From Craspedostauros australis (lineage: Eukaryota > Bacillariophyta > Bacillariophyceae > Mastogloiales > Achnanthaceae), in contig JAMXDE010000003.1 in assembly GCA_026770025.1 (NCBI GenBank), positions 1,178,001 through 1,242,000 on the forward strand: a stretch of DNA of 64,000 bases, given 5' to 3'. Numbering within the stretch: the stretch's first letter is position 1; every line of letters begins with the position of its first letter. The notes beneath the pieces were generated by a model that had not been told where the DNA came from, ran no database searches, and saw nothing but the letters and a program-made list of their open reading frames with translations. Below are positions 5,659-61,744 of the stretch, piece by piece. Made by a program: the position numbers and the translations under genes.

Positions 5659-5690
<32 letters not shown>

Positions 5691-7326: not shown

Positions 7327-7516
7327 GCTTCCTACTATACTTGCGGGTTGCAGTTGAGCTGGTTGGAATTGTATTGTCTATGAATAATATTAGTTGCTCC
7401 TCCTATTGTGCTATGGCTTGATTTGGTTTGGTTTGGTTTGGTTTGGTGGATGGCGTTCGTAGATGGGTGGATGGAGACGAGTTGGGAAGTCGCGATCTCG
7501 GTTGACGATCTGCGGG
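7327..7516. promoter_or_regulatory. Upstream region of the SET-JmjC gene with GGTTT repeats
   Basis: The 190 bp between the start codon at 7326 and the left end of the transposon contain about five GGTTT/GGTTTG units near 7414-7445. No TATA box or initiator can be assigned with confidence. Confidence 0.4.
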
Positions 7517-34705: not shown

Positions 34706-37700
34706 CAGAGGTAGGACCTCCTCTCCGAGAGAAACGAGCAGAGGCGAGAACTCGTAGCACACGATCTTGGAGCTGCCGCAGACACATCTTCCGTTTGTGT
34801 ACTCTCCATCCTCTACGGGGACAACTCCATTGTGCACACAAGTACGACCTTCTCCCACCCTGGCCCTGCTTTGGCATCGCCATCCGCCTCGATGCCTGTA
34901 GAACCTTTTGCACCCAGTGGTGGAGAACTTCCTCATCGAGAGAAACGAGTGAATCAGTGTGTTGTTCCACATCTGCCACTCGACGATCCATTATACGTAT
35001 TCTTTCGCCTGTGCGTTATCTACGAGCCACACCCCGACTCCTGCTTTCAGGTCATCATCCACGTCGATGTTGGCATCGTTTTGGATGGAGAGGCAGTTTG
35101 CGGCGATGGGTGGCCAAGCGCGAAGGGCGACACGGCCGGCCTGGAATAGCAATTGGCATCGTGATCGAAATGCCTCGCCACATCGGTTTTAATCTTCTTT
35201 TCGGAGATGTCTTTGCTCGGGTACGCCGCTGCAGGGAGGGAAAGCGAGGACAAGGACTCTGGTGGCACAAGGGGCTCCTGTCCCGAATTGCGAGTTGCGC
35301 GAGTCTCCGTTGGAACTTCTCGGAAAGAGCACGTCTATGCACGTGCGCGTCACCATCCACGAGTGCCTGTTGGCAGCATAGGATGTCTCGCCTCTCCCCT
35401 GCTCAACAATATCGTCGGTTTGGATGTCTTGTCTTGTCTCGTCGCTGGTACGCGCGCACCTTTCCATTACATCAATTCTACACAAACGCTCTCCCCTGGT
35501 TCCGCGTCCCCCAACGTTGCATGTCTCTCTTCCATGCTCCCTCTCTGTTTTCTGCGAACTGATTTGTCGTGGCGACCACTGCAGGGAGAACACTGTATCC
35601 AAATGTTCCGAGTGGCCCACAAACCTCTGCACAAGTCTCTCCACCTCGTCATAAAATGCAAAAATCAGTAATCGCAAGAGCAACACCCACACAGCCATTA
35701 CATAACAGACCAAAACAGGACAGAACGATCCATTCACTCACTCCGTCAGACGAGACAACATGAATAGCACACACTTATCGCCGACGTTGCATGCCGCGAG
35801 ACACAACATTCCTACCTCCAAGGTCGAAGCTCTCTCCATTCAACTTGCACCAGACGAGACAACGAAGAGCAAGGAGGCACTCCCATCAACAACATCGACA
35901 ACAACAGCAACATCGTCAAAAGACAGCACGGTCACCATGGAACATGCGGAGCTCCCGTTCCGTCAGGTGGGCTTGATCGGAAGGGACAAGGAGCTTCGAA
36001 TCCTTGAGAACGCTTTCCGAACCACCTGCGCGCAAAGCAAGAGACACTCCGTGCTTGGCATCAACAACCGCAGCACAATCCATCCAAACCTCCACTCTGG
36101 CGAACTCCAGGCGCCATCCTCATCCAAGGATGTGGTCAACAAGTATCAGCCGACGTCCGCAGAAGGCACATCTTCGAAGAGGACGCTCGTGCTCATCTCA
36201 GGACATTCCGGCGGTGGAAAGACGGCACTCGCCATGCAGGTCAAGCGCTTCGCCTCCGTCCAAGACAGCGATCCACATCAACCACCATTCCATGGCTTCG
36301 CCGTGACTGGCAAATGCGAGATCTCCAAGATGAATGCCGAGCAACCGTACGCCGGCATCAAACCGGCATTGATGGAGCTCTGCAAACAGATCCTCAGCCT
36401 GGAGCCTGGTGAGGCTGATACTCCAGTCGATATCATCGACACTCCTCTGAACAAGGTTTCAGCAGCTGACTTGGCATTCCGAACACAAGAATCCGCAGCC
36501 GCCACTGTATCGTCGGCATCATCGACGTCATCATCATCGACATCATCGGCATCGTTGTTGAGCGCGACAGAAGGGGGATCGCACACAGCAACTACTGTCG
36601 GTACAAGCGCGAAGGAGGGAAGCCAACAGTTAGGTCTCCCAACACCAACACCCTCCTTCAGCGAGGATCCTAGACAACTCTCCGCCCTGCGAAAGCTGTT
36701 GAGGCGAGGCATGACGAAGGGAGAGGTCCAGGCACTGTCGAACATCATCCCGGATCTCCCACGTGTCGTCTTCGGCGACGCCCACATGAACGCCAGCGCC
36801 AACTTCCACGACGACGCCTCCGTCATGAGCGCATCGACGAACTGGTCAGGCACGCAAGGCACAGCTCGGGCGAAGAGCCATCGCATCGGATACCGCGCCC
36901 ACGGCGACCGACTCAAGTTCGCTCTGCGGAAGCTCATTCAGATCATCTGCAACTACTGCCCCCTCGTCTTCGTCATCGACGATCTGCAATGGGCAGACAA
37001 GGCATCGCTCGACATCGTGAAATCATGGATGCTGGACAACAAGAACTCATCGCTCATGATCATCGGGTGCTACCGATCCAACCTTCTGGAAGAGAACGAT
37101 GTTCTCAAGACCACGCTGACATCATTGGATGAATCCAAGCGGGAGCGTGCCCTCCGCATCGTCAAGCTTCCTGTCCAGGACTTGGAGGTGCATCACGTCA
37201 ACGAGATGCTGTGTCGGCTGTTGACTGTGTCAACGGGTGACAGCACACGCAATGTACAAGGCAGTGGCGCTGACGCCGACGCCGACGCCGAAACTGACAT
37301 GAGCCACCTGTCCAAGGTTGCAGAGGAGCTTGCTGATGTGGTACATCAAAAGACGGCTGGAAATCCCTTCTTCGTCCAGCGATTCCTTCAGTCCTTGGTT
37401 GACGAAGGCCTGCTCAAGTACAACGGATCAAAGCAATCGTCACCGCCACCGCCATCCAACACCAAGAGCAGCAGACTCGCTTGGGCATGGTCATGGGACG
37501 ATGTAGAGATACGGGCCAAGTCGCCATCCACGAGCAGCATCATCGAGCTCATGAAGGACAAGCTGCAGCAGGTGCGCAATGCTCGCCAGATCTTACCTAT
37601 CGCAGCATGTCTGGGTGCATCCTTCTCACACTCGACCATCGGCATCGTGATGCGCGGTCTGTCCATCCATTCCGCCCATTCCGCGTTCGTTCGCAAGCTA

Positions 37701-39862
37701 TTTGGCATCACCCACATCGTTTCCACCAACGATATTGAGGAGATGCTGCAAACATGCGAGCAAGAAGGTCTCATCGAGACATCCGTGGGCATCGCCGGTA
37801 CAGCGAGGCTTTCCGCTAAGTCAGGTAGAAAAGCGTTGAGCAGAACGCGCAGCAAGATGAAGACTCAGAAGAAAAAGAGGAGGGCGAAGCCATCGACCAT
37901 CTACAACTTCAGCCATGACAAGGTCCAAGAGGCGGCATTGGCCATGGTGGATGAGGAGCAGTTGTCCGAGCTGAAGTACCGAGTCGGCGAGATCCTGCTG
38001 TTCGGTCTTTCCGAAGACGAGTTGAACGAGCGCATCTTCATGATCGCCAACCTCGTCAACACGAGGCTCGATCTCATCCCAGACATCAACAAGAGCGAAC
38101 GCGGCAAGCGCGTCATGATGCTCAACTTCGGCGCCGGAATCAAGGCAGTGAGCTGCTCATCTTTCCACTTGGCGTCCCAATACTTCCGAACCGCCATCTA
38201 TCTCCTTCCCGAAAATTGCTGGGAGACCATGCAGGAGGAGACATTGCAAGCCTACACCGCCGCGGCAGAGTGCGCCTTCGTCACGTTGGAGCTTGACCGG
38301 GCCCGCAAGTACTGCAACATCATCATCGAGTCGAAGTGCGACATGGTGGACAAGATCAAAGCGTACGACACTCTCGTCGATGTGGAAATGGCGGATATGC
38401 ACAACGATGGAGATAAATACACCGCCCTCAAGCTCTGCACCCATGTGCTCGCTCAGCTTGGATACAAGTTGCCAAAGCCTGGAATCGGGCGCACGGTGCA
38501 CACTATCGTTCGCTTGCTGATGCTGAAGCGCATGAGACGCTGGTTGACGCCGAAAATGATCGCCGACATGCCGCTGGTCACGAACAGGAAAGAAGAGGCC
38601 ATCATGGCAATGATGTCGAAAATGATAACGATCTGTTTCTTGACCAAGCCGGAGCTCATCCCTTTCGTTTCGCTGCAAATCGTCGACCTCACGTTCAAGT
38701 ATGGCACTTCCGAGTATTCTCCGGGCGCCTTCTTGGGTCTGGGCGTGTTCGCAGGAATTGTGATTGGAGATGCCAAGACGCGACGGGTCCTGGGGCAGAG
38801 GGCCTTGGAACTCATGGCGAGGATGGATCATCCCATCTCAGAAGGTTTCTTCCGCGCTCAATACTACACGCTGGTGCAGCACTACTTGGGTCCCCTCGAA
38901 GACACAGCGGAGCCGCTGATGGACATATACCGTCTGGGAATGTCCGTTGGCGACGTGGACATGGCGATTTGGAGCGCCACGTCTGGCATGTCAGTGCATA
39001 TTCAGATCGGCACCACCCTGCCACAGCTCGATTCCGACCTCGCGACCTTGGCAAGGGTGGCGGCAGATTTCCACCAGGTCCTCCAGACAGCCTTTCTGAA
39101 GATCCACTGGCAGGCGATTCTGAACCTGCGCGGAGTATCGCAGCACCGCATCCTTCACATCGGCGACGCCTTCAACGAAGAAAGCGAGATGGAGGGACTC
39201 GGCGACAAAGTCAAGGGCCTCATCCAGAGCTTGACCGACATCTCCAAGGCATTCTGCTGCGCATTCTTCGGCGAATACGAGCTCGGCGCCAAGATCTCGT
39301 GCGACATGATCTTTCAGCTGATGAAGGAACACCCGAGCTCTTCAGGCTTACCGTCGGCGTTCTTCCACGCGGCAATCTGCTTCTTCGCCGCATCACACTC
39401 CAAGACGGCCACTTCGAAGTACTACAAGGTGGGGAAGAAATGCCTGCAGCAGCTGAAGCGATGGGAAGCACAGGGCAATCCCAACTGCCGCCACTACATC
39501 CTGACGCTGGAGGCCGAACAGCAGTTCTTGCGCGGCAAGCATTGTAAGGCAATGGCGTTGTACAAGGAGGCCATCAAGGTGTTTGCCCGTCATGGGTACA
39601 TCCATGATCAAGGTCTTGCACATGAGCGATTGGGGGACTGTTGCATGGCCTGTGGGCGTGAAGCAGAAGCGAAAGAGTACTACACGGAGTCGATGAAGGC
39701 CTATGACGAATGGGGTTCGATGGGGAAGGTCGACGATCTGAACAGCAAAGTGGAAGGCATCGAGTGTTAGCACACATACGCGCACCACACACAGGAGAGT
39801 GAGGCAATAGCATAATGCCAATACTCTAGATCATTCTCTTATCACTGGTGCCACTCATACAG
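34706..39862 (+). repeat. Segmental duplication, copy A (intact)
   Basis: Matches 46085-46600 (left part) plus 56900-61542 (right part) at very high identity, from TGCAGAGGTAG to the 3' flank of the ATPase gene. The first 500 bp, a more diverged middle at 35240-35480, and the whole ATPase gene are included. Copy A carries the uninterrupted junction at 35211-35230. Confidence 0.9.
35760..39770 (+). CDS. STAND/AAA_16-type predicted ATPase with helical repeat C-terminus, copy A
   Basis: 1336 codons, no intron, ATG at 35760. After a Ser/Thr-rich N-terminus, GLIGRDKELRILENAF (about 71-86) opens the AAA_16 NTPase module. Walker A is GHSGGGKTAL at 148-157 and Walker B is VFVIDDLQWAD at about 402-412. 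A poly-Ser insert (about 245-265) interrupts the module. ARQILPIAACLGASFS and YNFSHDKVQEAAL (about 714-726) match the arm region of STAND ATPases, where the equivalent reads FxHDRVQQAAY. Residues 800-1336 are helical, with TPR-like units (YFRTAIYLLP, EAKEYYTESMKAYDEWG). STAND proteins are signalling switches whose C-terminal repeats sense a ligand; these genes are numerous in diatoms. No kinase or cyclase domain is attached. The near-identical copy B lies at 57446. Confidence 0.87.
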   Translation: MNSTHLSPTLHAARHNIPTSKVEALSIQLAPDETTKSKEALPSTTSTTTATSSKDSTVTMEHAELPFRQVGLIGRDKELRILENAFRTTCAQSKRHSVLGINNRSTIHPNLHSGELQAPSSSKDVVNKYQPTSAEGTSSKRTLVLISGHSGGGKTALAMQVKRFASVQDSDPHQPPFHGFAVTGKCEISKMNAEQPYAGIKPALMELCKQILSLEPGEADTPVDIIDTPLNKVSAADLAFRTQESAAATVSSASSTSSSSTSSASLLSATEGGSHTATTVGTSAKEGSQQLGLPTPTPSFSEDPRQLSALRKLLRRGMTKGEVQALSNIIPDLPRVVFGDAHMNASANFHDDASVMSASTNWSGTQGTARAKSHRIGYRAHGDRLKFALRKLIQIICNYCPLVFVIDDLQWADKASLDIVKSWMLDNKNSSLMIIGCYRSNLLEENDVLKTTLTSLDESKRERALRIVKLPVQDLEVHHVNEMLCRLLTVSTGDSTRNVQGSGADADADAETDMSHLSKVAEELADVVHQKTAGNPFFVQRFLQSLVDEGLLKYNGSKQSSPPPPSNTKSSRLAWAWSWDDVEIRAKSPSTSSIIELMKDKLQQVRNARQILPIAACLGASFSHSTIGIVMRGLSIHSAHSAFVRKLFGITHIVSTNDIEEMLQTCEQEGLIETSVGIAGTARLSAKSGRKALSRTRSKMKTQKKKRRAKPSTIYNFSHDKVQEAALAMVDEEQLSELKYRVGEILLFGLSEDELNERIFMIANLVNTRLDLIPDINKSERGKRVMMLNFGAGIKAVSCSSFHLASQYFRTAIYLLPENCWETMQEETLQAYTAAAECAFVTLELDRARKYCNIIIESKCDMVDKIKAYDTLVDVEMADMHNDGDKYTALKLCTHVLAQLGYKLPKPGIGRTVHTIVRLLMLKRMRRWLTPKMIADMPLVTNRKEEAIMAMMSKMITICFLTKPELIPFVSLQIVDLTFKYGTSEYSPGAFLGLGVFAGIVIGDAKTRRVLGQRALELMARMDHPISEGFFRAQYYTLVQHYLGPLEDTAEPLMDIYRLGMSVGDVDMAIWSATSGMSVHIQIGTTLPQLDSDLATLARVAADFHQVLQTAFLKIHWQAILNLRGVSQHRILHIGDAFNEESEMEGLGDKVKGLIQSLTDISKAFCCAFFGEYELGAKISCDMIFQLMKEHPSSSGLPSAFFHAAICFFAASHSKTATSKYYKVGKKCLQQLKRWEAQGNPNCRHYILTLEAEQQFLRGKHCKAMALYKEAIKVFARHGYIHDQGLAHERLGDCCMACGREAEAKEYYTESMKAYDEWGSMGKVDDLNSKVEGIEC

Positions 39863-41434
39863 AGGAGCCTGATCAGTGAGTCGACCTGCACTTTGAGATG
39901 AACCTCTTCATTGTTTCCTCGGATTTCCAAACTAAGCCCATATTCGTAATCCTCGCAGATCGAAAACATATACTGATCCATTTCAGTTCTGAGGTTGGTC
40001 GTATTTTAAGTTTTATGGACCGATGGATGTGCGTATTTTTGGATCTCCTTTGGGTTTCAGCCTGTGACTACCGACTACTTCGATCCAAATTAACCCTTTG
40101 CTGTTAGTTGGATTTTCGTGTGCTGTTGTGACACGATCCGGAAGGGATGGCCTAGTTGACTGCCAGATTCGAGGAATCTGTTGGTGAAGTCAACTTGGGG
40201 CGACCGTCTGGGGATTTGTAGTGAATGACAATGAAGTAGATTAGTTTTGTTGTGCTGATCTTGAGTTGTGCTATTTGTTATCTGAATAGTATGCATTGTG
40301 AGTTGATCAGTTTCAGATGTAGGATGAAGAAACGATAGTCAGTTGAGTAGTGCGGCTCTGCACTGACCTTCAGAGGTTCAGTGCTGAGGGCGGACGGGTC
40401 CTCTCTTTCTCTCTTTCTCCAGTATCTCATCGTAGTCGTTCTACGTTTGAGTACAAAGCTTTGACACCTTGATTGAGGTTGAGATCGAGAACACAGGTTG
40501 TCAGGCAAAGGGAATTGATGTAGGATTCCCTGCATGTGTTGAAGCAGGGAAGATCTCTTGACTATTGTTGTGCAGGGCTATCAGGTTGGCTAGCTGACAA
40601 CGGAATTCAGGTTGACTGCATCGCAATAGTTCAGGAGAGCATATAGCTCCCAGGGTGCCTTGATCCCATTGACTCGAATAGTATTTGAGTCGGTGGTGAT
40701 TCATGAGTGAAAGTGGGAGAAGGAGGGAAAAGAGGGATTGTTCCGTATTTGTTGGTGGGAGGTTTCGCGCCAGAATTTCGCGCCAAAATAATTTTCATGG
40801 TGCGACAAGGAACACACTGAGTAAAAAGTAGTTCGTTCTTTAGATGAACTTCAACTGTTCTTCGTTTCAGCGAGTATGTTCCCATTTTGAATTGTTTAGT
40901 CTCTTTTCCAGTGAATCGGATCGGTCAAAATGCCAGATGTAAGATAGAGCGGTGGCCACAAAAGACTCAAGTCTTTTGTGCGCGCACTGCGAACGCGCAA
41001 CGAGAGTTTTCACCCAGGCATTGCACCACGGTTTCTCTCATACTTTTACGACACCCTTCTCGTGTCACACACACTCTTCCCTTTTCTCAACGCACGTTGT
41101 CTCATCGCCCAGCTGTGTTCACACGCAAGTACAATTGCACCACCAGATTGCTTGAGTTTATCAGCTATATCCATCGGTTGGAGAACGGAGACAAGGCGTG
41201 CAATGAGCTGAAGACAAGAGGTTGGAGTCGTTTGCACTACGCTCTGCCTGTCACTTCTGTGTACGGTCACAGAGTGCTGCACGACGCATCGACGAGCACA
41301 CCACAGGACGCTGTGGAGAGAGAAAGCAACCAGACCGTTTGGAACAGCCAGCAAGTCAGACAGTCGGAAGACTAGACAAGCAAAGGCAACAGACAGCACA
41401 TCAATCAACGCAACAATCATCAAGCAAAACCACC
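39863..41434. other. Intergenic region upstream of the copia-like remnant
   Basis: About 1.6 kb, AT-richer than the ATPase genes. No gene is seen. The part nearest 41.4 kb may include leader or terminal-repeat sequence of the decayed element, but I could not match it to a second terminal repeat. Confidence 0.4.
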
Positions 41435-46084: not shown

Positions 46085-46602
46085 TTTGCAGAGGTAGAAC
46101 CTCCTCTCCGAGAGAAACGAGCAGAGGCGAGAACTCGTAGCACATGATCTTGGAGCTGCCGCAGACACATCTTCCGTTTGTGTACTCTCCATCCTCTACG
46201 GGGACAACTCCATTGTGCACACAAGTACGAGCTTCTTCCACCCTGGCCCTGCTTTGGCATCGCCATCCATCTCGATGCCTGTAGAACCTATTGCACCCAG
46301 TGGTGGGGAACTTCCTCATCGAGAGAAACGAGTGAAGCAGTGTGTTGTTCCACATCTGCCACTCGACGATCCATTATACGTATTCTTTTGCCTGTGCGTT
46401 ATCTACGAGCCACACTCCGACTCCTGCTTTCAGGTCATCATCCACGTCGATGTTTGCATCATTTTGGATGGAGAGGCAGTTTGTGGCCATGGGTGGCCAA
46501 GCGCGAAGGGCGACACGGCCGGCCTGAAATAGCAATTAGCGCTGTGATCGAAATGCCTCGCCACATCGGTTATGATCTTCCTTTCGGAGACGTCTTTGGT
46601 CT
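46085..46602 (+). repeat. Segmental duplication, copy B, left part
   Basis: Matches 34706-35215 with few differences, then stops abruptly at the left end of the 10.3-kb insertion. The continuation resumes at 56896. Confidence 0.88.
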
Positions 46603-46640
46603 GGGGGGGGAAGGGAAAACGGCGTTTTTTGTAAATATGA
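46603..46640 (+). repeat. Left terminal inverted repeat of the 10.3-kb element
   Basis: G run, AAGGGAAAACGGCG, T run, GTAAAT. Partner at 56861-56895. Confidence 0.82.
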
Positions 46641-48080: not shown

Positions 48081-49126
48081 TTATTCTTCCGGTTCCACCA
48101 GGGAATCCAACCAATCATCCGTCTCTTGGATGACCCTCATCGTTTCGGTGAGGTTAAACAGTGGATTAGTATGTTTCAGTTCCAACTGCGTGATTGTGGC
48201 AACCGAGTACATTGCATACTGGTGCTTCTCCAGTAAGTGCCGCCATTTTTGCTTCAGGCACTTCCAGTTCTTGAACCTTTTGTGTACGGTTTCATGGCGT
48301 GCACGAATCACGCCATTGCGTCGAGTGCGATCCAAGCAGCAGCTTCGCTCACCTCTGTACCCACGGTCAGCAATGACCTGTTCGAAAGGATCCAACGCAT
48401 GTAAGAGCTTCTCTCGATAAATTTTGATATCCGGCCACTCCCCACAAGGATACGGTCCGTCCACCCACACAAGGTGCCCTTTTGCAATGGAAACGCAAGT
48501 TTCGTATCGGAGCCCTGCAGCTTGGAATTTGTGGGAATACCAGCCTGGATCATACAAAACAGGCTCCATGATGAGGAAGTCAGTACCGTCTACGGATGCC
48601 ATTGTTGTTGTTCCTGGTGGACAGCCAATTTTCCGATCTTCAAAACATATCTGGGATAGGATGAACACATGTGAACATTGGAAGAGAAAGAGAATGTGAG
48701 ACGTAAGTCATGCTGCTCATCAATTGCATTGTCTATGTTGCAGTCTGGATGTTGATGTTCCAAAGTTGTGCCACTTACAAGTTCACGGCTGAGGAGACCC
48801 AACGCACGAAGAATAATCCAGGTCCACTTCTGTACAGTTTTCACATCCTTTCCCATTCGTCCTGCCAGCACGCCCCATGTCGGATATTGTTTGAGAAACA
48901 TGAGAGCGCACAGCAGGTGCTCCATTGTTGCATTCAACGGCAGTAAGTCCTCCTCATTCAGTCCGTCCCAGGCCATGGCTGCCACTTTGGTGTGGGTTCC
49001 GAAGTTGCTTCGGAAACATGTTTGCACGCCATACGATGGTGAAGTCTGGAGTGTAGGATCAAATGCCTGTCCCAGAAGCTCCATTCCCTTGCATGCAATG
49101 GCTGTCTCTGTTGTCTCTGATGCCAT
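48081..49126 (-). CDS. PIF/Harbinger-like transposase (DDE_Tnp_4 type), one intron
   Basis: Exon 1 runs from the ATG at 49126 to 48779, exon 2 from 48650 to 48081, across a 128-bp GTAAGT...CCCAG intron in phase 0, giving 305 residues. The spliced junction reads LLSRELICFEDRKIG. Exon 1 has a helix-turn-helix-like part (TMEHLLCALMFLKQYPTWGVLAGRMG, VKTVQKW). Exon 2 carries ASVDGTDF (Asp137), WPDIKIYR, IADRGYRGE (Asp211) and RARHETVHKRFKNWKCLK (Glu236), the wording of the Harbinger DDE endonuclease domain. Length is near the family's usual 300-400. The gene looks whole: no stop interrupts it and the catalytic residues are in place. It is divergent from the 1037-residue gene, as expected if both are the two genes of a Harbinger-type element. 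Confidence 0.85.
48651..48778 (-). other. Intron of the Harbinger-like transposase gene
   Basis: On the minus strand GTAAGTGG starts at 48778 and CCCAG ends at 48651. Removing it joins two halves of one transposase domain in frame. Confidence 0.82.
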
Positions 49127-49440
49127 TCTGATGTGCCTTGATGTACAAACAGGATGGCGGACAAAATTGTGACATCAAGCATTGAACTATGAAATTCAGC
49201 AACAGAGAGACGAAAATATACACGGCAAGTGCTGCTATTGTTGATTTGTTCTGAACACACAAGAACATGCAAAAATTAGCATGTTGTTCAGCTTGTTGGC
49301 ATTCGCCATCTGTGTTGGTTTGGACTGGCAAAAAACAAAATACATTCACGAACACAGAGGAGGGTTGGATGTGCTGCGTTTGATTCTGCCCGCGCAATTA
49401 TGTACGTGGGCCTCATGTCTGTGCAGTATTGTCCCAACAA
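49127..49440. other. Upstream region of the transposase gene
   Basis: About 310 bp between the transposase start and the satellite array; no gene. It should contain the transposase promoter. Confidence 0.4.
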
Positions 49441-51115
49441 ACCGAGTATGGAGTCATGGCGCACAGGGCCAACCATACAAAGTAGTAACATGTGCAACAT
49501 CAACAAGTACGGACAGATAGGCTAAATCGCAACAAACGAAAAGACCAGCACACACAGAAACAGACAAAGAGAAAGAGGGACGTGTTGGACGATGCGCGAG
49601 CGACGTTGTATGCGCGATGATTTGTTCTTCATGTCTTTTCTGACATGTCTGTGCAGTATTGCTGAAACAAACCGGGTATGGACTCATGGTACGCAGGGTT
49701 GATCGTACGAACTTGTCACATGTGCAACGTCGGCAAGAACAGACAGGTTCAATCGAAACGAACAAAAAAGAACAGCACACACAGAAACAGACCAAGAGCA
49801 GGAGGACAATGTCGGATGGTGCGCGAGTGATGTTGTACGTGGGATGATTTGTTGTTCCGCACGTCGTTTCTGGCATGTCTCTGTGCAGTGTTGCTGAAAC
49901 AAACCAGGTATGGCGTCATGACACACAGGGTCGATTGTGCAAACTTGTCACATGTGCAATGTCAGTAAGAACAGACGGGCTAAAACAAAACGAACGAAAA
50001 CGACCGGCACACACAGAAACAGACGAAGAGCAGGAGGACCGTGTCGGATGGTGCGCGAGTGATGTTGTACGCGGGATGATTTGTTCTTCATGTCGTGTCT
50101 GGTACGGTTGCAACAAACCGGGTATGTAGTAATCGAACACAGGGTTGATTGTGCACACTTGTCACATGTGCAATGTCGGTAAGAACAGATGGGCTAAATC
50201 GAAACGAACGAAAAAGAACAGCACACACAGAAACAGACCAAGAGCAGGAGGACCATGTCGGATGGTGCGCGAGTGATGTTGTACGTGGGATGATTTGTTC
50301 TTCATGTTGTATTTAGTACGGTTGCAACAAACCGGGTATGAAGTCATGACACACAGGGTCGATCGTGCGAACTTGTCACATGTGCAACGTCAGTAAGAAC
50401 AGACGGGCTAAATCGAAACGAACGAAAAAGAACAGCACACACAGAAACAGACGAAGAGCAGAAGGACCATGTTGGATGGCACGCGAGTGATGTTGTACGT
50501 GGGATGATTTGTTCTTCATGTCGTGTCTGGTACGGTTGCAACAAACCAGGTATGGAGTCATGACACACAGGGCCAACCATACAAAGTAGTAACATGTGCA
50601 ACGTCAGTAAGAACAGACGGGCTAAATCGAAACGAACGAAAAAGAACAGCACACACAGAAACAGACGAAGAGCAGAAGGACCATGTCGGATGGCACGCGA
50701 GTGATGTTGTACGCGGGATGATTTGTTCTTCATGTTGTATTTAGTACGGTTGCAACAAACCGGGTATGGAGTCATGACACACAGGGTCGATCGTGCGAAC
50801 TTGTCACATGTGCAACGTCAGTAAGAACAGACGGGCTAAATCGAAACGAACGAAAAAGAACAGCACACACAGAAACAGACGAAGAGCAGAAGGACCATGT
50901 CGGATGGCACGCGAGTGATGTTGTACGCGGGATGATTTGTTCTTCATGTCGTGTCTGACATGTGTCTGTGCAGTATTGCTGAAACAAACCGGGCATGGGG
51001 TCATGGCGCGCAGGGTCGATCGTGCGAACTTGTCACAGGCGCAATGTCAGTAAGAACAGACGGGCTAAATCGAAACGAACGAAAAAGAACAGCACACACA
51101 GAAACAGACGAAGAC
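49441..51115 (+). repeat. Tandem array of eight units in two length classes, 214 and about 230 bp
   Basis: Units anchored on ACCGGGTATG or ACCAGGTATG start at 49441, 49671, 49903, 50117, 50331, 50545, 50759 and 50988, so spacings are 230, 232, 214, 214, 214, 214 and 229. The longer class contains TGACATGTSTGTGCAGTATTGCTGAAAC-like sequence where the shorter has GTACGGTTGCAAC. Units include ACTTGTCACATGTGCAACGT and GAACAGCACACACAGAAACAG. Similar frames open in every unit reflect the repeat, not genes. The array lies between the two divergent genes of the element. Confidence 0.9.
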
Positions 51116-52150
51116 CGGCAGCGCTTTGTCACATTTATTCGTCCTGTGCGAAATTCGACCGTTACTGTTTCCCTCGGACATTCGCACCGTTTTGTCCATC
51201 TCGCCCTCGAATCGTGGAACATGTTCTCATTTGTACCATTTTTTCTGTGTTGGCCGGACCGAAACAGCGTTTCGACTGCGTCGCCTTTGGCGCATTCGCC
51301 CAACATGTTGGTCTGTTTGTACATACACTGCAGTTCTGAACGGATTACTCCCTGTGTCACGATGTGCCAGGAATATTGTGTTGGTTGTGGCAGTTCTGAA
51401 CAGGCAGTTTCAGAATGAACGGTTCGAGCAACACCATTGGGGCATTTCTTAGCCCCTTTCTATGCCAATTGACATAATTTTGAGACTATTTTATGCCTTG
51501 GTGTCGATTTCGACCAAAAAGGGCATTACTTAGACCCATTCTTGTCGATTATTGTGCAGCAAGTGACACTATTGGGGCTATCAAAGTCTTTGAAAGTGCC
51601 ATTTGGGACCAACATGTCCCGTCTTGGGTTCGCTTCGACGCTATTTAGTGTGGTTGTACACTGCAACGTGGTTCCGAGCCCATTCCTACTAGGTCGTATT
51701 CGACCGAACCAACGGACTGTCCGATCCTGCTTGGTCTTTTCGTGACATTCCAAGTCACGCGCGAATACTTCCGCGGAATGCGAAACTTCAATGTGTTCAG
51801 TTTCATCTCACCATGTGGTATTCGACCGCGCCAACGGATTGTCCGGTCCTGCTCGGTCTTTTCGCAGCATTCGAAATCATCCACGACCACTGGCGCGGAA
51901 TGCGTCGCTGCGATGGAATTGAGCCAGGTTCTGCGCGTACGCATGGCCACGAAGGACGGAATTTGCATCGCGATGGAGCGCACGACCGTGCTGGTTTGTT
52001 TCGGCACACCGGAAGAACAGAAGCAACCAAACACCCAAAGAGCAGCGTCGCAAAACAAGCGTTGCAGTGGTATTGCCTCCCAACGTGTCAAAACAACCCA
52101 CCCGAACAAATCATTGCTGTCATAAAAAACCACGACACTCACCCACACAA
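51116..52150. other. Unique spacer between the satellite and the octamer array
   Basis: About 1 kb with a roughly 58-bp sequence repeated at about 51690-51748 and 51813-51870 (TATTCGACCGMRCCAACGGA, then GTCCGRTCCTGCTYGGTCTT). No gene seen; frames overlap and extend into the octamer array. Confidence 0.5.
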
Positions 52151-53235
52151 TCCAACATCAACACATTCGAACATCAGCACATCAGCACATTCGCACATCA
52201 ACGGACTTGCACATTTGGACATCAGCACGTCCCCGCACTTGCACATCAAGACACTCTCACATTTGGACATCAGCACATCCTCGCACTTGCACATTTGGAC
52301 ATCAGCACGTCCCCGCACTTGCACATCAGCACATCCTTGCACTCGCACATTTGGACATCAGTGCATCCTCACACTCGCACATCAGCACATCCTCGCACTC
52401 GCACATTTGGACATCAGTGCATCCTCGCACTTGCACATTTGGACATCAGTGCATCCTCACACTTGCACATCAGCACATCCTCACACTCGCACATTTGGAC
52501 ATCAGTGCATCCTCGCACTTGCACAACAAGACACTTGCACATCAAGACACTCTCACATTCGGACATCAGCACTTCAGCACATCAGCACATCCTTGCGCTT
52601 GCACATTTGGACATCAGTGCATCCTTGCACTTGCACATCAGCACATCTTCGCACTCGCACATTTGGACATCAGTGCATCCTCACACTTGCACATCAGCAC
52701 ATCCTCACACTCGCACATTTGGACATCAGTGCATCCTCGCACTCGCACAACAAGACACTTGCACATCAAGACACTCTCACAATCAGACATCAGCACTTCA
52801 GCACATCAGCACATCCTTGCGCTCGCACATTTGGACATCAGTGCATCCTTGCACTTGCACTCGCACAGCAAGACACTCGCACATCCGGACATCAGCACAT
52901 TCGCACATCCTCTCACTCGCGCATCAAGACACTCTCACATTTGGACACTCTCACATTTGGACATCAACACTTCCTTGCACTCGCACGTCCCCGCACTTGC
53001 ACATCAGCACACCCTCGCACTTGTGCAAAACAGACTCTCAGATTTGGACATCAGCACATCCTCACACTTGCACATCAAGACACTGTCACATTCGGACATC
53101 AGCACATCAACACATCCTCGCACTCCCACATCAACAGACTCTCACATCCAGACATCAGCACATTTGGACAGCAACACATCAACAGACTCTCACATTTGGA
53201 CATCAGCACACTTGCACATCAACACACACCCAACA
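52151..53235 (+). repeat. Octamer-word array, about 135 units, ending at a start codon
   Basis: The whole stretch can be cut into consecutive 8-bp words such as TTGCACAT, TCGCACAT, TTGGACAT, CAGCACAT, CAGTGCAT, CCTCGCAC, CCTCACAC, CCTTGCAC, CCCCGCAC, CAAGACAC and TCTCACAT. I found only two words that break the length, a 6-mer (TTGCAC) and a 7-mer (AACAGAC). Words follow an order: TTGGACAT is usually followed by CAGCACAT or CAGTGCAT, and CCTNNCAC by TTGCACAT or TCGCACAT. The array has no ATG and stays open in all three plus frames for most of its length. It ends directly at the ATG at 53236, and one frame through it is in phase with that gene. It probably serves as the 5' leader, or less likely as an N-terminal extension. 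Confidence 0.88.
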
Positions 53236-56200
53236 ATGGTTGGCTCGGAAGCCCGTTTCTACAAAAATGGCCCTGATGCTAAGGAGCTGATCAAGGCGTT
53301 CTTGGCCGATCCAACAAAATGGCACTGGGAGGCAACGTCTCTGCGTCTTCATCACCCTTTCTTGGTCAAGTACGATGCCAAGAAGTTTGTTCGGACGCTA
53401 CGCGAATTCAAACGAACACTGGTGAAGAAGTCTTTGTTTCATCGTGAGTATCACATGCCCAGTGACATTGCCAACTTTTCATCCTGAGCATCTCTGCTTT
53501 CAACCAGGTTACTTCTCATCTGTGTTCTTATCTCTTTCCTATGACACCAACCTTTGGCCTTCATCTCTTCATCGTTTCATCCAGAGGACGGCACACCACA
53601 CAAGGTTTCAATCCAGAAGCTAGGTGCCAACCTCCGTCCTCTTGATGAACCTGCAGCTGACGACTCTGTGCTAGAAACCTCCAACCATAACTCCAACACC
53701 GCCAACCAGAACAACGCCAACACCATCAACAACAGCAGGTCAGCTGTGAGCAGACGAATCACACGGAGAAGCACACATGACAGATCCGACAAACATGGCA
53801 CCACTACCCCCAGTCAAACCAATGACACAGATGGGAGTAACAACAGTGCATGGGCTGAAGACGATGATGCATCCGATGATGTTTCAGAAACCGATTCTGA
53901 GGATGACATCGACTACCTTGGGATGGGCAACACAGCAGTCCAAAACCAAGCTTCAAGCCGCCCTCTGGACCCCATCACTGCAAGATTTGGCATCTTTTTT
54001 GAGCTATCAGAGCCCCAACGAGTTGCCAAGTTTCGGAAGCTGAGCCGCACCATCGAGGTCTTCCACACAACTCAAGTGTGGAGGCCTCGTGGTGAACGAT
54101 ATCGCATGGTTGGGGTCGACTTCCACCTGCCTGCATGTACTACAAGGAATGACGCAACCGTGACCATCGAAAGTTGGAAGGTGGGCGGAGTACCTCGGAT
54201 GTTCCTGGTGCTGCTGTACAAGCCACCAACAGCTTTCGGTCAAGATGGAAGCATCGTGGACATTCTAATCGACAAGTTGGGCCATCCATTCTCTGATGCA
54301 GGACAGAAACGTGCTGCCCATGTGCAGCAGTTTCGGAATGAAGACTTTGCGGAGTCATTCCGATCGGAAATGCTTGTGCCCATGCCATTTCCTATTGACA
54401 CCATCTTCTGTGACACACCATGCCGAAGATTGGGAGGAGTGGTCTGGCTACGTCATGCTGTGAAGGACAATGATGGCGCCACTCACAACATCCTCACAAT
54501 AACGGTACGTTTGAAGGAAGCAACCAACGTGGGTGTGACCCGGCACTTTTCTGTATGCCATGGTCTGGGCTTTGCAGATGGTGATGGAAGCCATCTGGGT
54601 GTCCGTGGTGAAGTCACTAACCCACAAAGTTGCACCACTGACATCACCACCCACAATATCAACAACACATTGACAAGCACGGTGAGCAAGACAGTGGACA
54701 CCACAGGAAATGCTGCTGGCTACAGCACAACACCTGCAATACCCACGCCCACCACCAAGCCAGGAGGCCACAGCCACATCCCAGCAGCACAAAGCCTTGC
54801 AAGCAACAACACCGGACAACTACCATCAGCAACGCCGCCAAGGCTGCACAGCCAACAAGCCAGGCCCAGGGTTTCTGCAATCAGTCATCAGCCAGCAACC
54901 CGGACTGCCACTGACGACACCATGTCGGTATTCACGGACAGTACCGACATAATACGAGACCGTATTGAGATCAAGCGGGTAGCACTTGAGATGATGGAGG
55001 CTGAACTGGCTCTCAAGGTGGAGGAAAAGCGCATAATCCGGACACGGGGGAACGCCTTACAACAGAGGCCCAGGCTGTTGGCAGATAACAATGAAGCAAG
55101 TGGACCAAGAAAGAAGCCCCGCCTTGCCATCGAAATGGCCCCAGCAGGTGGCCCCAACATCAATGTGAACGTCTCTCAAAATGCCAACAGATGGTGGGAG
55201 CATGAGGATATCTCCCTCGATGCGGCATTGGTTGATGCTGCTGGCCACTTGGCAAGCAGATCAGGTGGTGAAGATCCAGAAGCAGCAAGTGCGAGAGCCA
55301 GTGCAGACCAGAACACACACTGTCGCCCTGCTATGGACGAAAGAAGCCAGAGCAGTCGCATTCACCCATCGCTCGAACGGATCCTACCAGCCCAGGCAGG
55401 CGGTGCACAGCAAACAACACGAACAGATGCCCGAACGGAGACACAGACAATGCCACCACCACAATCACCAGCAGCCAGACGTTCGGAAGTCTTGGACAGT
55501 GGAGGAAGACGGGCATGGCCAGACGAGATGGCAACAGCAGGATCGCCCCAACGGATCCTGCCATACCAGGCAGGCGGTGTGCAGCATACAACACGAACAG
55601 ATGCCCGAACGGAGACACAGACAATGCCACCACCACAATCACCAGCAGCCAGACATTCCAAAGTCTCAGAAATTGGAAGAATAAGGGCATGGCCAGAGGA
55701 GATGGCAACAGCAGGATCACCTCAACGGATCCTACCAGCCCAGGCAGGCGGTGCACAGCAAACAACACGAACAGATGCCCAAACAGAGATGCAGACAATG
55801 ACACCACCACAATCACCAGCAGCCAGACGTTCAGAAGTCTTGGACAGTGGAAGAGGACGGGCATCAGAAGAGGTGATTGCTGTAGTGGGATCGCCCCAAC
55901 GGATCCTACCAGCCCAGGCAGGCGGTGAGCTGCAAACAACACGAACAGATGCCCAAACGGAGACACAGACAATGCCACCACCACAATCACCAGCAGCCAG
56001 ACGTTCCAAAGTCTCAGAAATTGGAAGAATAAGGGCATGGCCAGACGAGATGGCAACAGCAGGATCACCCCAACGGATCCTGCCATCCCAGGCAGGCGGT
56101 GTGCAGCATACAACACGAACAGATGCCCAAACGGAGGTGGTGATCTTGCCATCACCACTATCACTGGTGTCAACAAGAGGAGCCGAAACAGGTGGAGTCC

Positions 56201-56490
56201 AGATGCCATCGCCAAGTGCAACTCAAACATCAACTGAATCGGTCCCAAAAGATGATGCAAGAGGAGAGACAACAGAAGGAAGTATCCAACAGCCGCCGCA
56301 GGTTGCAACAGTACCAACAACAATGGCGGAAGCAACCACGAATAATCCCACAATGGCAGAACAAGCAATAGGAGACCAACAATCACAGCACCAGCATAAT
56401 GACAAAGAGAAAGCACGAAGAAAGCCGACTACTACTGGGATGAGGACCCGTGGGAGGGCTGCACGACAGAGCCGTGGTGATACAACTTAA
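53236..56490 (+). CDS. 1037-residue element protein with five 58-residue repeats, one intron
   Basis: Exon 1 (53236-53443) and exon 2 (53585-56490) join in phase 1 across a 141-bp GT-AG intron; the ATG (CAACAATGG) is the first after an ATG-free array. Residues 1-70 (AKELIKAFLADP, HPFLVKYDAKKFVRTLREFKRTL) look like a small helical, perhaps DNA-binding, module. Residues 75-200 are disordered and acidic. A globular, Trp/Phe-rich region of unknown family follows to about 400 (VWRPRGERYRMVGVDFHLP, PRMFLVLLYKPP). A Gln/Thr/Pro-rich linker and an ELALKVEEKR helix come next, then five repeats from about residue 668 to 930 (QRILPAQAGG, TTRTDA-TET, PPPQSPAARRS). The C-terminus is basic (RGRAARQSRG). 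Harbinger elements usually encode a second, DNA-binding (Myb/SANT-like) protein; this may fill that role, but I cannot name its domain. Confidence 0.72.
53444..53584 (+). other. Intron of the 1037-residue element protein
   Basis: Donor GTGAGT at 53444, pyrimidine-rich acceptor region and CCAG ending at 53584; joins KKSLFH to QDGTPHK. Confidence 0.75.
55381..56140 (+). repeat. Intragenic 174-bp tandem repeat, 4.4 copies
   Basis: ATCCTRCCA anchors lie at 55381, 55555, 55729, 55903 and 56077, exactly 174 bp (58 codons) apart. Alternate units share variants (LDSG versus SEIGR), hinting at a two-unit higher-order period. Confidence 0.9.
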
Positions 56491-56860
56491 CCGCCTCAGC
56501 AAGGCAAAGGAGAATACCATAAATAGTGGGGTCAGAATGTACAATGTTTGCTTGTTGTAACTAGACGAATCCTGCTGACGGAATGCAACAAGTGAACTGG
56601 CAAGAGAGTCGCAACAACGTCCGCAACCCCCCTTGGAAGAGAGGGGAACATGCTGGCTCTGTAGCTGTCGAATGTGTACGATGGCATGAAGAGGCGAAGG
56701 ATCTGTGGACCAGAATGAAAAAAGCCAAAAAACAACAAGATGCAGTCCGTACACAACATGAGAATCACAAGAAAAGCCACAAGTTGTTTTTGAAAATACG
56801 CAAGAATGTTTCGCCATTTGGTGGCCCGCATCCCTTTTTGACCTTCGTTTTCCTTCGTCG
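56491..56860. other. 3' flank of the element protein gene
   Basis: About 370 bp between the stop codon and the right inverted repeat. Frames here are short; no gene. Confidence 0.5.
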
Positions 56861-56895
56861 CAATTTAAAAAAAACGACGTTTTCCCTTCCCCCCC
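56861..56895 (-). repeat. Right terminal inverted repeat of the 10.3-kb element
   Basis: CAATTTAAAA, A run, CGACGTTTTCCCTT, C run; inverse of 46603-46640. Confidence 0.82.
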
Positions 56896-59800
56896 TGGGA
56901 CGCCGCTGCAGGGAGGGAAAGCTAGGACCGAGCACTTCACAACTTGTCCCAGTGGCACAAGACGTCCGTCCAGACTTGCGAGCTTCTCGATTCTATGTTG
57001 AAACTTCTCGGAAAGAACATGTCTATGTGTGTGCATGTCACCATCCAAGAGTACCTGGAGGCAACCAAGGATAGTTTGCCTCTCCTTCATTGGCTTGGTT
57101 ATCTTGTCCGTCTCGTCACAGGTCCGCGCGCACCTTCCATCATGCAAGAGGCACAAACCAACATCAATTCTACACAAACGCTCTCCCCTGGTTCTGCGTC
57201 CCCCAACATTGCATGTCTCTCTTCCATGCTCCCTCTCTGTTTTCTGCGAACTGATTTGTCGTGGCGACCGCTGCAGGGAGAACACTGTATCCAAATGTTC
57301 CGAGTGGCCCACAAACCTCTGCACAAGTCTCTCCACCTCGTCATAAATGCAAACATCAGTAATCGCAAGGGCAACACCCACACAGCCATAACAGAACAAA
57401 ACAGGACAGAACGATCCATTCACTCACTCCGTCAGACGAGACAACATGAATAGCACACACTTATCGCCGACGTTGCATGCCGCGAGACACAACATTCCTA
57501 CCTCCGAGGTCGAAGCTCTCTCCATTCAACTCGCACCAGACGAGACAACGAAGAGCAAGGAGGCACTCCCATCAACAACATCGACAACAACAGCAACATC
57601 GTCAAAAGACAGAACGGTCACCATGGAACATGCGGAGCTCCCGTTCCGTCAGGTGGGCTTGATCGGAAGGGACAAGGAACTTCGAATCCTTGAGAACGCT
57701 TTCCGAACCACCTGCGCGCAAAGCAAGAGACACTCCGTGCTTGGCATCAACAACCGCAGCACAATCCATCCAACCCTCCACTCTGGCGAACTCCAGGCGC
57801 CATCCTCACCCAAGGATGTGGTCAACAAGCATCAGCCGACGTCCGCAGAAGGCACATCTTCGAAGAGGACGCTCGTGCTCATCTCAGGACATTCCGGCGG
57901 TGGAAAGACGGCACTCGCCATGCAGGTCAAGCGCTTCGCCTCCGTCCAAGACAGCGATCCACATCAACCACCATTCCATGGCTTCGCCGTGACTGGCAAA
58001 TGCGAGATCTCCAAGATGAATGCCGAGCAACCGTACGCCGGCATCAAACCGGCATTGATGGAGCTCTGCAAACAGATCCTCAGCCTGGAGCCTGGTGAGG
58101 CTGATACTCCAGTCGATATCATCGACACTCCTCTGAACAAGGTTTCAGCAGCTGACTTGGCATTCCGAACACAAGAATCCGCAGCCGCCACTGTATCGTC
58201 GGCATCATCGACGTCATCATCATCGACATCATCGGCATCGTTGTTGAGCGCGACAGAAGGGGGGTCGCACACAGCAACTACTGTCGGTACAAGCGCGAAG
58301 GAGGGAAGCCAACAGTTAGGTCTCCCAACACCAACACCCTCCTTCAGCGAGGATCCTAGACAACTCTCCGCCCTGCGAAAGCTGTTGAGGCGAGGCATGA
58401 CGAAGGGAGAGGTCCAGGCACTGTCGAACATCATCCCGGATCTCCCACGTGTCGTCTTCGGCGACGCCCACATGAACGCCAGCGTCAACTTCCACGACGA
58501 CGCCTCCGTCATGAGCGCATCGACGAACTGGTCAGGCACGCAATGCACAGCTCGGGCGAAGAGCCATCGCATCGGATACCGCGCCCACGGCGACCGACTC
58601 AAGTTCGCTCTGCGGAAGCTCATTCAGATCATCTGCAACTACTGCCCCCTCATCTTCGTCATCGACGATCTGCAATGGGCAGACAAGGCATCGCTCGACA
58701 TCGTGAAATCATGGATGCTGGACAACAAGAACTCATCGCTCATGATCATTGGATGCTACCGATCCAACCTTCTGGAAGAGAACGATGTTCTCAAGACCAC
58801 GCTGACATCATTGGATGAATCCAAGCGGGAGCGTGCCCTCCGCATCGTCAAGCTTCCTGTCCAGGACTTGGAGGTGCATCACGTCAACGAGATGCTGTGT
58901 CGGCTGTTGACTGTGTCAACGGGTGACAGCACACGCAATGTACAAGGCAGCGGCGCCGACGCCGACGCCGAAACTGACATGAGCCACCTGTCCAAGGTTG
59001 CAGAGGAGCTTGCTGATGTGGTACATCAAAAGACGGCTGGAAATCCCTTCTTCGTCCAGCGATTCCTTCAGTCCTTGGTTGACGAAGGCCTGCTCAAGTA
59101 CAACGGGTCGAAGCAATCGTCACCGCCACCACCATCCAACACCAAGAGCAGCAGACTCACTTGGGCATGGTCATGGGACGATGCAGAGATACGGGCCAAG
59201 TCACCATCCACGAGCAGCATCATCGAGCTCATGAAGGACAAGCTGCATCAGGTGCGCAATGCTCGCCAGATCTTACCTATCGCAGCATGTCTGGGTGCAT
59301 CTTTCTCACACTCGACCATCGGCATCGTGATGCGCGGTCTGTCCATCCATTCCGCCCATTCCGCGTTCGTTCGTACGCTATTTGGCATCACCCACATCGT
59401 TTCCACCAACGATATTGAGGAGATGCTGCAAACATGCGAGCAGGAAGGTCTCATCGAGACATCCGTGGGCATCGCCGGCACATCGAGGCTTTCCGCCAAG
59501 TCAGGTAGAAAAGCGTTGAGCAGAACGCGCAGCAAGATGAAGACTCAGAAGAAAAAGAGGAGGGCGAAGCCATCGACCATCTACAACTTCAGCCATGACA
59601 AGGTCCAAGAGGCGGCATTGGACATGGTGGACGAGGAGCAGTTGTCCGAGCTGAAGTACCGAGTCGGCGAGATCCTGCTGTTCGGTCTTTCCGAAGACGA
59701 GTTGAACGAGCGCATCTTCATGATCGCCAACCTCGTCAACACGAGGCTCGATCTCATCCCAGACATCAACAAGAGCGAACGCGGCAAGCGCGTCATGATG

Positions 59801-61542
59801 CTCAACTTCGACGCCGGGAGCAAGGCAGTGAGCTGCTCATCCTTCCACTTGGCGTCCCAATACTTCCGAACCGCCATCTACCTCCTTCCCGAAAATCGCT
59901 GGGAGGCCATGCAGGAGGAGACGTTGCAAGCCTACACCGCCGCGGCAGAGTGCGCCTTCGTCACGTCGGAGCTTGACCGGGCCCGCAAGTACTGCAACAT
60001 CATCATCGAGTCGAAGTGCGACATGGTGGACAAGATCAAAGCGTACGACACTCTCGTCGATGTGGAAATGGCGGATATGCACAACGATGGAGATAAATAC
60101 ACCGCCCTCAAGCTCTGCACCCATGTGCTTGCCCAGCTTGGATACAAGTTGCCAAAGCCTGGAATCGGGCGCACGGTGCACACTATCGTTCGCTTGCTGA
60201 TGCTGAAGCGCATGAGACGCTGGTTGACGCCGAAAATGATCGCCGACATGCCTCTGATCACGAACAGGAAAGAAGAGGCCGTCATGGCGATGATGTCGAA
60301 AATGATAACGATCTGCTTCCTCACCAAGCCGGAGCTCATCCCTTTCGTTTCGCTGCAAATCGTCGACCTCACGTTCAAGTACGGTGCTTCCGAGTATTCT
60401 CCGGGCGCCTTCATGCGTCTGGGAGTGTTGGCAGGAATTGTGATTGGAGATGCCAAGACACGACGGGTCCTGGGGCAGAGGGCCTTGGAACTCATGGCGA
60501 GGATGGACCATCCCATCTCAGAAGGTGTCTTCCGCGTCCAGTACTACGCGAGGGTGCAGCACCACCTGGGTCCCCTCGAAGACATGGCGGAGCCGTTTAT
60601 GGATCTATACCGTCTGGGAATGTCTGTTGGCGACGTAGACAGGGCGCTTTGGAGCGCCACGTCCGGCATGTCAGTGCATATTCATATCGGCACCACCCTG
60701 CCACAGCTCGATTCTGACCTCGCGACATTGGCAAGGGTGGCGACAGATTTCCACCAGGTCCTCCAGACAGCCTTTCTGAAGATCTCCTGGCAAAAGGTTC
60801 TGAACCTGCGCGGAGTATCGCAGCACCGCATCCTCCACATCGGCGACGCCTTCAATGAAGAAAGCGAAATGGAGGGACTCGGTGACAAAGTCAAGGGCCT
60901 CCTCCAGAGCATGACCGACTCCTCCAAGGTATTCTGCTGCGCATTCTTCGGCGAATACGAGCTCGGCGCCAAGATCTCGTGCGACATGATCTTTCAGCTG
61001 ATGAAGGAAATTCCGGGCTCTCTGGGCTTACCGTCGGCGTTCTTCCACGCGGCAATCTGCTTCTTCGCCGCATCACACTCCAAGACGGCCAATTCGAAGT
61101 ACTACAAGGTGGGGAAGAAATGCCTGCAGCAGCTGAAGCGATGGGAAGCACAGGGCAATCCCAACTGCCGCCACTACATCCTGACGCTGAAGGCGGAACA
61201 GCAGTTCTTGCGTGGCAAGCATTGTGAGGCAATGACGTTGTACAAGGAGGCCATCAAGGTGTTTGCCCGTCATGGGTACATCCATGATCAAGGTCTTGCA
61301 CATGAGCGATTGGGGGACTGTTGCATGGCCTGTGGGCGTGAAGCAGAAGCGAAAGAGTACTACAAGGAGTCGATGAAGGCCTATGACGAATGGGGTTCGA
61401 TGGGGAAGGTCGACGATCTGAACAGCAAAGTGGAAGGCATCGAGGGTTAGCACAGATGCGCGTACCAAGCACAGGAGAGTGAGGCAATAGCATAATGCCA
61501 ATACTCTAGATCATCCCCTTGCCAATGTTGCCCCTCATACAA
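56896..61542 (+). repeat. Segmental duplication, copy B, right part
   Basis: Resumes the match to copy A at GCCGCTGCAGGGAGGG (35225 in copy A) and continues to the 3' flank of the ATPase gene. The 35240-35480 interval is the least similar part of the block. Confidence 0.9.
57446..61450 (+). CDS. STAND/AAA_16-type predicted ATPase, copy B
   Basis: 1334 codons, same architecture as copy A: GRDKELRILENAF, Walker A GHSGGGKTAL, Walker B IFVIDDLQWAD, YNFSHDKVQEAAL and a helical TPR-like C-terminal half. It lacks one Asp-Ala pair in the Asp-Ala run near residue 505. By eye about 21 substitutions separate the copies over the first 970 or so residues but about 27 over residues 980-1218. No stop or frameshift is seen, so both copies look functional. 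The 10.3-kb transposon lies 550 bp upstream and may have displaced the distal promoter. Confidence 0.87.
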   Translation: MNSTHLSPTLHAARHNIPTSEVEALSIQLAPDETTKSKEALPSTTSTTTATSSKDRTVTMEHAELPFRQVGLIGRDKELRILENAFRTTCAQSKRHSVLGINNRSTIHPTLHSGELQAPSSPKDVVNKHQPTSAEGTSSKRTLVLISGHSGGGKTALAMQVKRFASVQDSDPHQPPFHGFAVTGKCEISKMNAEQPYAGIKPALMELCKQILSLEPGEADTPVDIIDTPLNKVSAADLAFRTQESAAATVSSASSTSSSSTSSASLLSATEGGSHTATTVGTSAKEGSQQLGLPTPTPSFSEDPRQLSALRKLLRRGMTKGEVQALSNIIPDLPRVVFGDAHMNASVNFHDDASVMSASTNWSGTQCTARAKSHRIGYRAHGDRLKFALRKLIQIICNYCPLIFVIDDLQWADKASLDIVKSWMLDNKNSSLMIIGCYRSNLLEENDVLKTTLTSLDESKRERALRIVKLPVQDLEVHHVNEMLCRLLTVSTGDSTRNVQGSGADADAETDMSHLSKVAEELADVVHQKTAGNPFFVQRFLQSLVDEGLLKYNGSKQSSPPPPSNTKSSRLTWAWSWDDAEIRAKSPSTSSIIELMKDKLHQVRNARQILPIAACLGASFSHSTIGIVMRGLSIHSAHSAFVRTLFGITHIVSTNDIEEMLQTCEQEGLIETSVGIAGTSRLSAKSGRKALSRTRSKMKTQKKKRRAKPSTIYNFSHDKVQEAALDMVDEEQLSELKYRVGEILLFGLSEDELNERIFMIANLVNTRLDLIPDINKSERGKRVMMLNFDAGSKAVSCSSFHLASQYFRTAIYLLPENRWEAMQEETLQAYTAAAECAFVTSELDRARKYCNIIIESKCDMVDKIKAYDTLVDVEMADMHNDGDKYTALKLCTHVLAQLGYKLPKPGIGRTVHTIVRLLMLKRMRRWLTPKMIADMPLITNRKEEAVMAMMSKMITICFLTKPELIPFVSLQIVDLTFKYGASEYSPGAFMRLGVLAGIVIGDAKTRRVLGQRALELMARMDHPISEGVFRVQYYARVQHHLGPLEDMAEPFMDLYRLGMSVGDVDRALWSATSGMSVHIHIGTTLPQLDSDLATLARVATDFHQVLQTAFLKISWQKVLNLRGVSQHRILHIGDAFNEESEMEGLGDKVKGLLQSMTDSSKVFCCAFFGEYELGAKISCDMIFQLMKEIPGSLGLPSAFFHAAICFFAASHSKTANSKYYKVGKKCLQQLKRWEAQGNPNCRHYILTLKAEQQFLRGKHCEAMTLYKEAIKVFARHGYIHDQGLAHERLGDCCMACGREAEAKEYYKESMKAYDEWGSMGKVDDLNSKVEGIEG

Positions 61543-61744
61543 AGGTACCAAGACGTAACGAACTTTTCATGGAGCAAACGAGAATGACTGTATTACTTGG
61601 AAAGTCACATTATTGGAATGAAGGACCCTCGACCTTCTGCGATTGCTTTACTTCACTTCACTTCACTTTAACACAGGTACAGTTTATCCAACTATGTATG
61701 GTACCATTTACGCGCCCATGCATGTACACGCCCATGCTCAATGT
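61451..61744. other. Convergent 3' flank between ATPase copy B and propeller gene
   Basis: About 290 bp with a CACTTCACTT short repeat near 61650-61670. No gene seen. Confidence 0.5.

Follow-up and report, generated by a model that had tools for sequence, protein, structure and literature searches.

What process keeps about 1.09 kb of DNA in an 8-bp register while the words that fill it vary, and leaves it without ATG or stop codons just ahead of a gene? This is the question raised by a locus on contig JAMXDE010000003.1 of Craspedostauros australis (assembly GCA_026770025.1), which we examined within a window of 64,000 nucleotides, the whole stretch of DNA analysed here and the basis of all coordinates. 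The array is striking to read, yet it is probably an ordinary minisatellite. We regard it as an octanucleotide minisatellite, old and degenerate, in which block duplications are nested and which lies in a C/A-rich leader or 5′ flank, and give this reading a probability of roughly 0.8. Features of the locus are collected in Table 1.

Table 1. Location, strand and basis of the octamer array, its internal features and the gene that follows it.
Feature	Coordinates	Strand	Basis
Degenerate 8-bp tandem array (133 complete octamers, 40 kinds)	52140–53227	+	Viterbi parse, lag-8 identity, TRF
Two adjoining 224-bp (28-word) copies, 9/224 positions different, no gap	52407–52854	+	Pair alignment; TRF period 224
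First internal register break, 6-bp unit	52858–52863	+	Viterbi parse
Second internal register break, 7-bp unit	53024–53030	+	Viterbi parse
8 bp separating the periodic part from the ATG, without fit to the word profile	53228–53235	+	Viterbi parse
Inferred exon 1, ATG at 53236, 69 codons plus one base	53236–53443	+	Sequence reading, splice sites by eye
Inferred exon 2, with 174-bp coding repeat	53585–56490	+	Sequence reading, splice sites by eye; TRF

The downstream gene, read across two exons with splice sites placed by eye, has an inferred product of 1037 residues; the repeat in exon 2 is in frame and spans 55368–56136 in 4.4 copies of 174 bp (58 residues). Neither exon piece matched a Pfam family at E ≤ 0.1, a sequence search of the PDB with the exon-2 protein gave no match at E ≤ 0.1, and a search for relatives of that protein in viral contigs returned 12 pattern stretches, of which none was confirmed. 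Rfam gave no match at gathering scores on 49000–57000, and a tRNA scan of the window under the bacterial setting found none.

Several other features were recorded in the window, whose gene content and introns point to a eukaryote and perhaps to a diatom. A 214-bp tandem array lies less than 1 kb upstream of the octamer region, at 49414–51114 (TRF: 5.6 copies from 49898 with 90% matches; blastn: further copies back to 49414), and a 90-bp near-tandem duplication, also upstream, pairs 51693–51782 with 51815–51904 at 80% identity and without gaps. A 4.4-kb duplication (35469–39865 and 57161–61545, 96.8% identical) carries an ORF of 1334–1336 residues, the first copy matching Pfam AAA_16 (E = 1.2e-14), with weak TPR matches below the cut-off. 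A dispersed duplication of 0.5 kb joins 34704–35221 and 46087–46605 (95% identical), and an ORF on the minus strand (4225–7377) has matches to SET and Cupin_8/JmjC domains in one protein.

A Viterbi parse divided the array into 133 octamers and four shorter segments (137 in all), the short ones being both ends (at 52140 and 53223) and two internal breaks. This agrees with a preliminary description of the locus, which had counted about 135 successive 8-bp segments, more than a dozen words and two exceptions in length. The octamers diverge from their consensus by a mean of 0.306 (n = 133). Because the first 88 words served to train the word profile, the parse is biased to one register; the 8-bp period itself does not depend on the trained profile, as it is shown by self-identity at lag 8, which is 0.524 in the array, whereas 1000 dinucleotide-preserving shuffles averaged 0.276 and did not exceed 0.331. 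Since the array exceeds all 1000 of these, a chance origin of the period is rejected; outside the array, the best 300-bp window reached 0.38. Position 3 of the word is C in 127 of 132 cases and position 4 is A in 124 of 132, while position 7 is mixed, its commonest base occurring in only 51 of 132. The array had been described as running exactly up to the start codon, which we do not find: the final 8 bp ahead of the ATG depart from the word profile, so the end of the array and the start codon do not coincide.

Self-identity within the array is highest at lags of 32, 56, 24, 112, 88 and 224 bp, all of them multiples of 8 and only one (24) a multiple of 3. TRF likewise reports periods of 24, 32, 56, 88, 112 and 224, with 224, 112, 56, 88 and 32 scoring best, and these periods, together with the ungapped 224-bp copies, show that the duplicated blocks consist of whole units. 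Peaks at 32, 56 and 24 and then at 112, 88 and 224 point to nested block copying and not to one expanding unit. Plain expansion of a single 24- or 32-bp unit, which the preliminary description had itself set against its interpretation, is rejected in that form because the 56-, 112- and 224-bp copies have equal or stronger TRF scores, and it holds only in spirit. The same description had proposed a mechanism that holds the 8-bp register in copying; this is borne out in the ordinary sense that duplicated blocks are whole multiples of 8 bp. It had also remarked on constrained word order, which is readily seen (of 15 occurrences of the word CACATTTG, 12 have GACATCAG as the next word) and which fits block duplications at the TRF periods of 32, 56, 88, 112 and 224.

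Joining the 40 words by a shortest tree takes 43 substitutions, a lower bound, against two length breaks, so that units differ mainly by substitution (at least 43 versus two). Seven other duplicated pairs in the window, some of which may be coding, together show 126 substitutions and 4 gap openings, a ratio of 0.032. Neither the STAND coding pair, with 111 substitutions to 1 gap opening, nor the 214-bp array entered this ratio. From 126:4, about 1.4 to 2.2 gaps would be expected for 43 to 70 substitutions, and the octamer array, with its two breaks, matches this local ratio.

Neutral simulations combined in-register block duplication, substitution and the local indel ratio, and runs were filtered on word number and divergence. 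At a ratio of 0.032, two or fewer off-length words were seen in 2421 of 8796 accepted runs, and in 1609/7276 runs with a single-word founder, 6951/16330 with a 56-bp founder and 12246/19619 with a 224-bp founder; 22–62% of matched neutral arrays were thus as regular as the one observed. A first simulation, with guessed indel ratios of 0.07 and 0.125 that were replaced by the ratio from the seven duplicated pairs, had kept off-length words to two or fewer in only 22 of the 683 runs selected, and none of the 683 was free of stops. The regularity outcome hinges on the indel ratio, and the first simulation favours the minisatellite reading less. In the neighbouring 214-bp array, copies aligned to the last copy gave 142 mismatches and 36 gap openings, a much higher gap ratio, in a count for which the aligner split one 15-base length difference shared by four copies.

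An 8-bp unit stands at the small end for minisatellites, a class whose size limits vary. In its head-to-tail units of constant length (133 octamers over ~1.09 kb, with two internal breaks) the array conforms to that class. The human minisatellite MSY1 has a 25-bp unit with base-substitution variants, and other unit lengths were 'never observed' according to the part of the source drawn on here (PMC2599865). As described there, MSY1 shares with our array constant-length tandem units and substitution variants arranged in patterns, and it differs in its A+T-rich 25-bp unit, in variants that are blocked and not interspersed, and in a predicted hairpin for each unit (PMC2599865), whereas the array has an 8-bp unit and folds worse than shuffles as RNA. 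Autosomal minisatellites characterised by MVR-PCR (variant-repeat mapping), mentioned in the same part of that source (PMC2599865), share with the array interspersed variants of one unit length; their allele turnover was measured, whereas the array is known from a single sequence. Constant length with variable content had been called abnormal for a minisatellite, a view countered by MSY1, so far as that account of it extends, and by the neutral simulations. An octamer array ahead of a start codon was not found among the titles and abstracts searched, which is no proof of its absence in print.

The array contains no ATG, as had been reported, and its forward stop triplets, reported as rare in all frames, are in fact absent from every one. 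Dinucleotide-preserving shuffles averaged 17.5 ATG and 11.3 stops, and 0/1000 were free of the former and 0/1000 of the latter; they are a weak control for such counts because shuffling destroys the repeat, and the pattern had been noticed before it was tested. The reverse strand of the array holds 81 ATG and 59 TGA. In matched neutral runs, ATG was absent from 974/8796, and from 628/7276 (single-word founder), 2433/16330 (56-bp) and 4594/19619 (224-bp), or 9–23%, and direct calculation put its absence at 0.18–0.29 for 43 events and 0.07–0.14 for 68. The lack of ATG alone is therefore unremarkable under neutrality.

Stops are moderately depleted, a deficit that is the one loose end and is unexplained. 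All stops were absent from 92/8796 matched neutral runs, and from 45/7276, 377/16330 and 797/19619 for the three founders in the same order (0.6–4%), with direct calculation giving 0.009–0.048 for 43 changes and 0.0006–0.008 for 68; ATG and stops were jointly absent from 28/8796, 12/7276, 86/16330 and 266/19619 (0.2–1.4%). The array also lacks 17 of the 64 triplets, 8 of the 17 containing TA, and at least 17 triplets were absent from 114/8796, 52/7276, 88/16330 and 176/19619 runs (0.5–1.3%). Neutral runs with at least 14 absent triplets were stop-free in 12/262, 96/627 and 245/1446 cases for the three founders. Across the window (1–64000) the TA dinucleotide is strongly under-represented (odds ratio 0.44). 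The rarity of stop absence and the low variety of triplets indicate that the array is less varied than the neutral model predicts, and limited variation, rather than selection on stops, is the simplest reading of the deficit.

Selection has nevertheless to be weighed, and the form of it that survives best, doubtful as it is, makes the array a long, weakly folded 5′ UTR from which ATG-creating mutations are purged since they would divert scanning ribosomes. The stretch from 51976 to 53235 has no ATG; the DNA is C/A-rich, with negative G–C skew from ~52000 up to the start codon, and in the 100 bp ahead of each of the window's seven presumed starts, of which two belong to near-identical paralogues, skew is likewise negative (−0.07 to −0.61). 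As RNA, 52246–53235 folds worse than 20 of 20 dinucleotide shuffles (z +2.36), and the gene's ATG has A at −3 and G at +4. Against such selection stand the neutral frequencies and calculated probabilities of ATG absence given above, and the stronger deficit is that of stops, which a leader need not avoid. The array may be an ATG-free leader, as the preliminary description suggested, and the negative skew before the six other presumed starts suggests that it may have grown inside a leader typical of this genome. A strongly folded leader is rejected, folding of 52246–53235 being weaker than that of all 20 shuffles.

Far less probable is that the stop deficit reflects real selection on an array read by ribosomes now or recently, which would result in a frame-indifferent octapeptide repeat, either as a proto-coding extension of the gene or within the overlapping upstream ORF 51813–53276. 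As 8 and 3 share no factor, octamer block copying carries each word through three phases, so that under ribosomal reading any word with a stop in one of the frames would be lost. Ohno is said to have had the idea of oligomer repeats, with a length indivisible by three, that are open in all frames; a stop-free unit of 8 bp is likewise open in all frames, with the same period in each, but the array gives no evidence of translation.

Marginally less credible again is the broader proposal that the array belongs, or once belonged, to a protein, with one or more frames read and stops selected against. All three forward frames are open through it (ORFs 51813–53276, 52067–53290 and 52207–53487), stops are missing beyond neutral expectation in both the simulations and the direct calculation, and whichever the frame, a unit of 8 bp is read as a period of 8 residues. 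The gene's own frame, however, has a TAA at 52123 and then no ATG until 53236, and the frame with an ATG start (51813) is not that of the gene. The starts of words are spread 44/44/44 over the three codon phases, with ten of the 14 commonest words in all three and four in two. Private changes in the gene's frame fall 6/9/7 over codon positions (of 22), without third-position excess, and mismatches by position class are 122, 100 and 101 of 352 each; only in the frame of ORF 52067, which lacks an ATG start, is the third position the largest class. A comparative study reports that coding regions hold a higher density of the longer units whose size is divisible by three (PMC3152781). The array has an 8-bp unit, five of its six top lags are not multiples of three, and it is unlike the same gene's coding repeat, with a period of 174 bp or 58 codons. 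It carries no coding signature, and the translated extension of 8-residue period put forward in the preliminary description is rejected on the stop at 52123 without a later ATG before 53236, the mixed word phases and the flat distribution of changes over codon positions.

Equally improbable is a protein-binding array, with the octamer as a putative recognition site and its 8-bp spacing selected: word positions 3 and 4 are far more conserved than position 7, but unevenness of this kind is seen in neutral runs too (best conserved position mean 0.92, least 0.47), and an exact 24-bp array probe had 0 matches in viral and prokaryote contigs, a poor place to expect a nuclear eukaryote array.

On the reading that we prefer, a degenerate minisatellite with nested block duplications, the founder would have been an 8-bp word near CACATCAG in C/A-rich, G-poor DNA ahead of the gene. 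This word would have been multiplied through misaligned copying, by replication slippage or unequal exchange; because misalignment on a repeat pairs whole units, blocks of 1 to ~28 words would have been duplicated in register. Point mutations would afterwards have given the 40 word types, and further block copying would have spread these variants and so constrained the order of words. The lack of ATG and stops would be due mainly to their absence from the founder word, to the disfavour of TA in the window and to the small number of independent mutations.

On this reading the array shows how ordinary block copying in register, together with point mutation, yields sequence that looks designed, with fixed word length, varied but ordered words and open frames. 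If the stop deficit were selection, the locus would offer a natural test of the capacity of repeats with periods indivisible by three to turn into frame-tolerant coding sequence.
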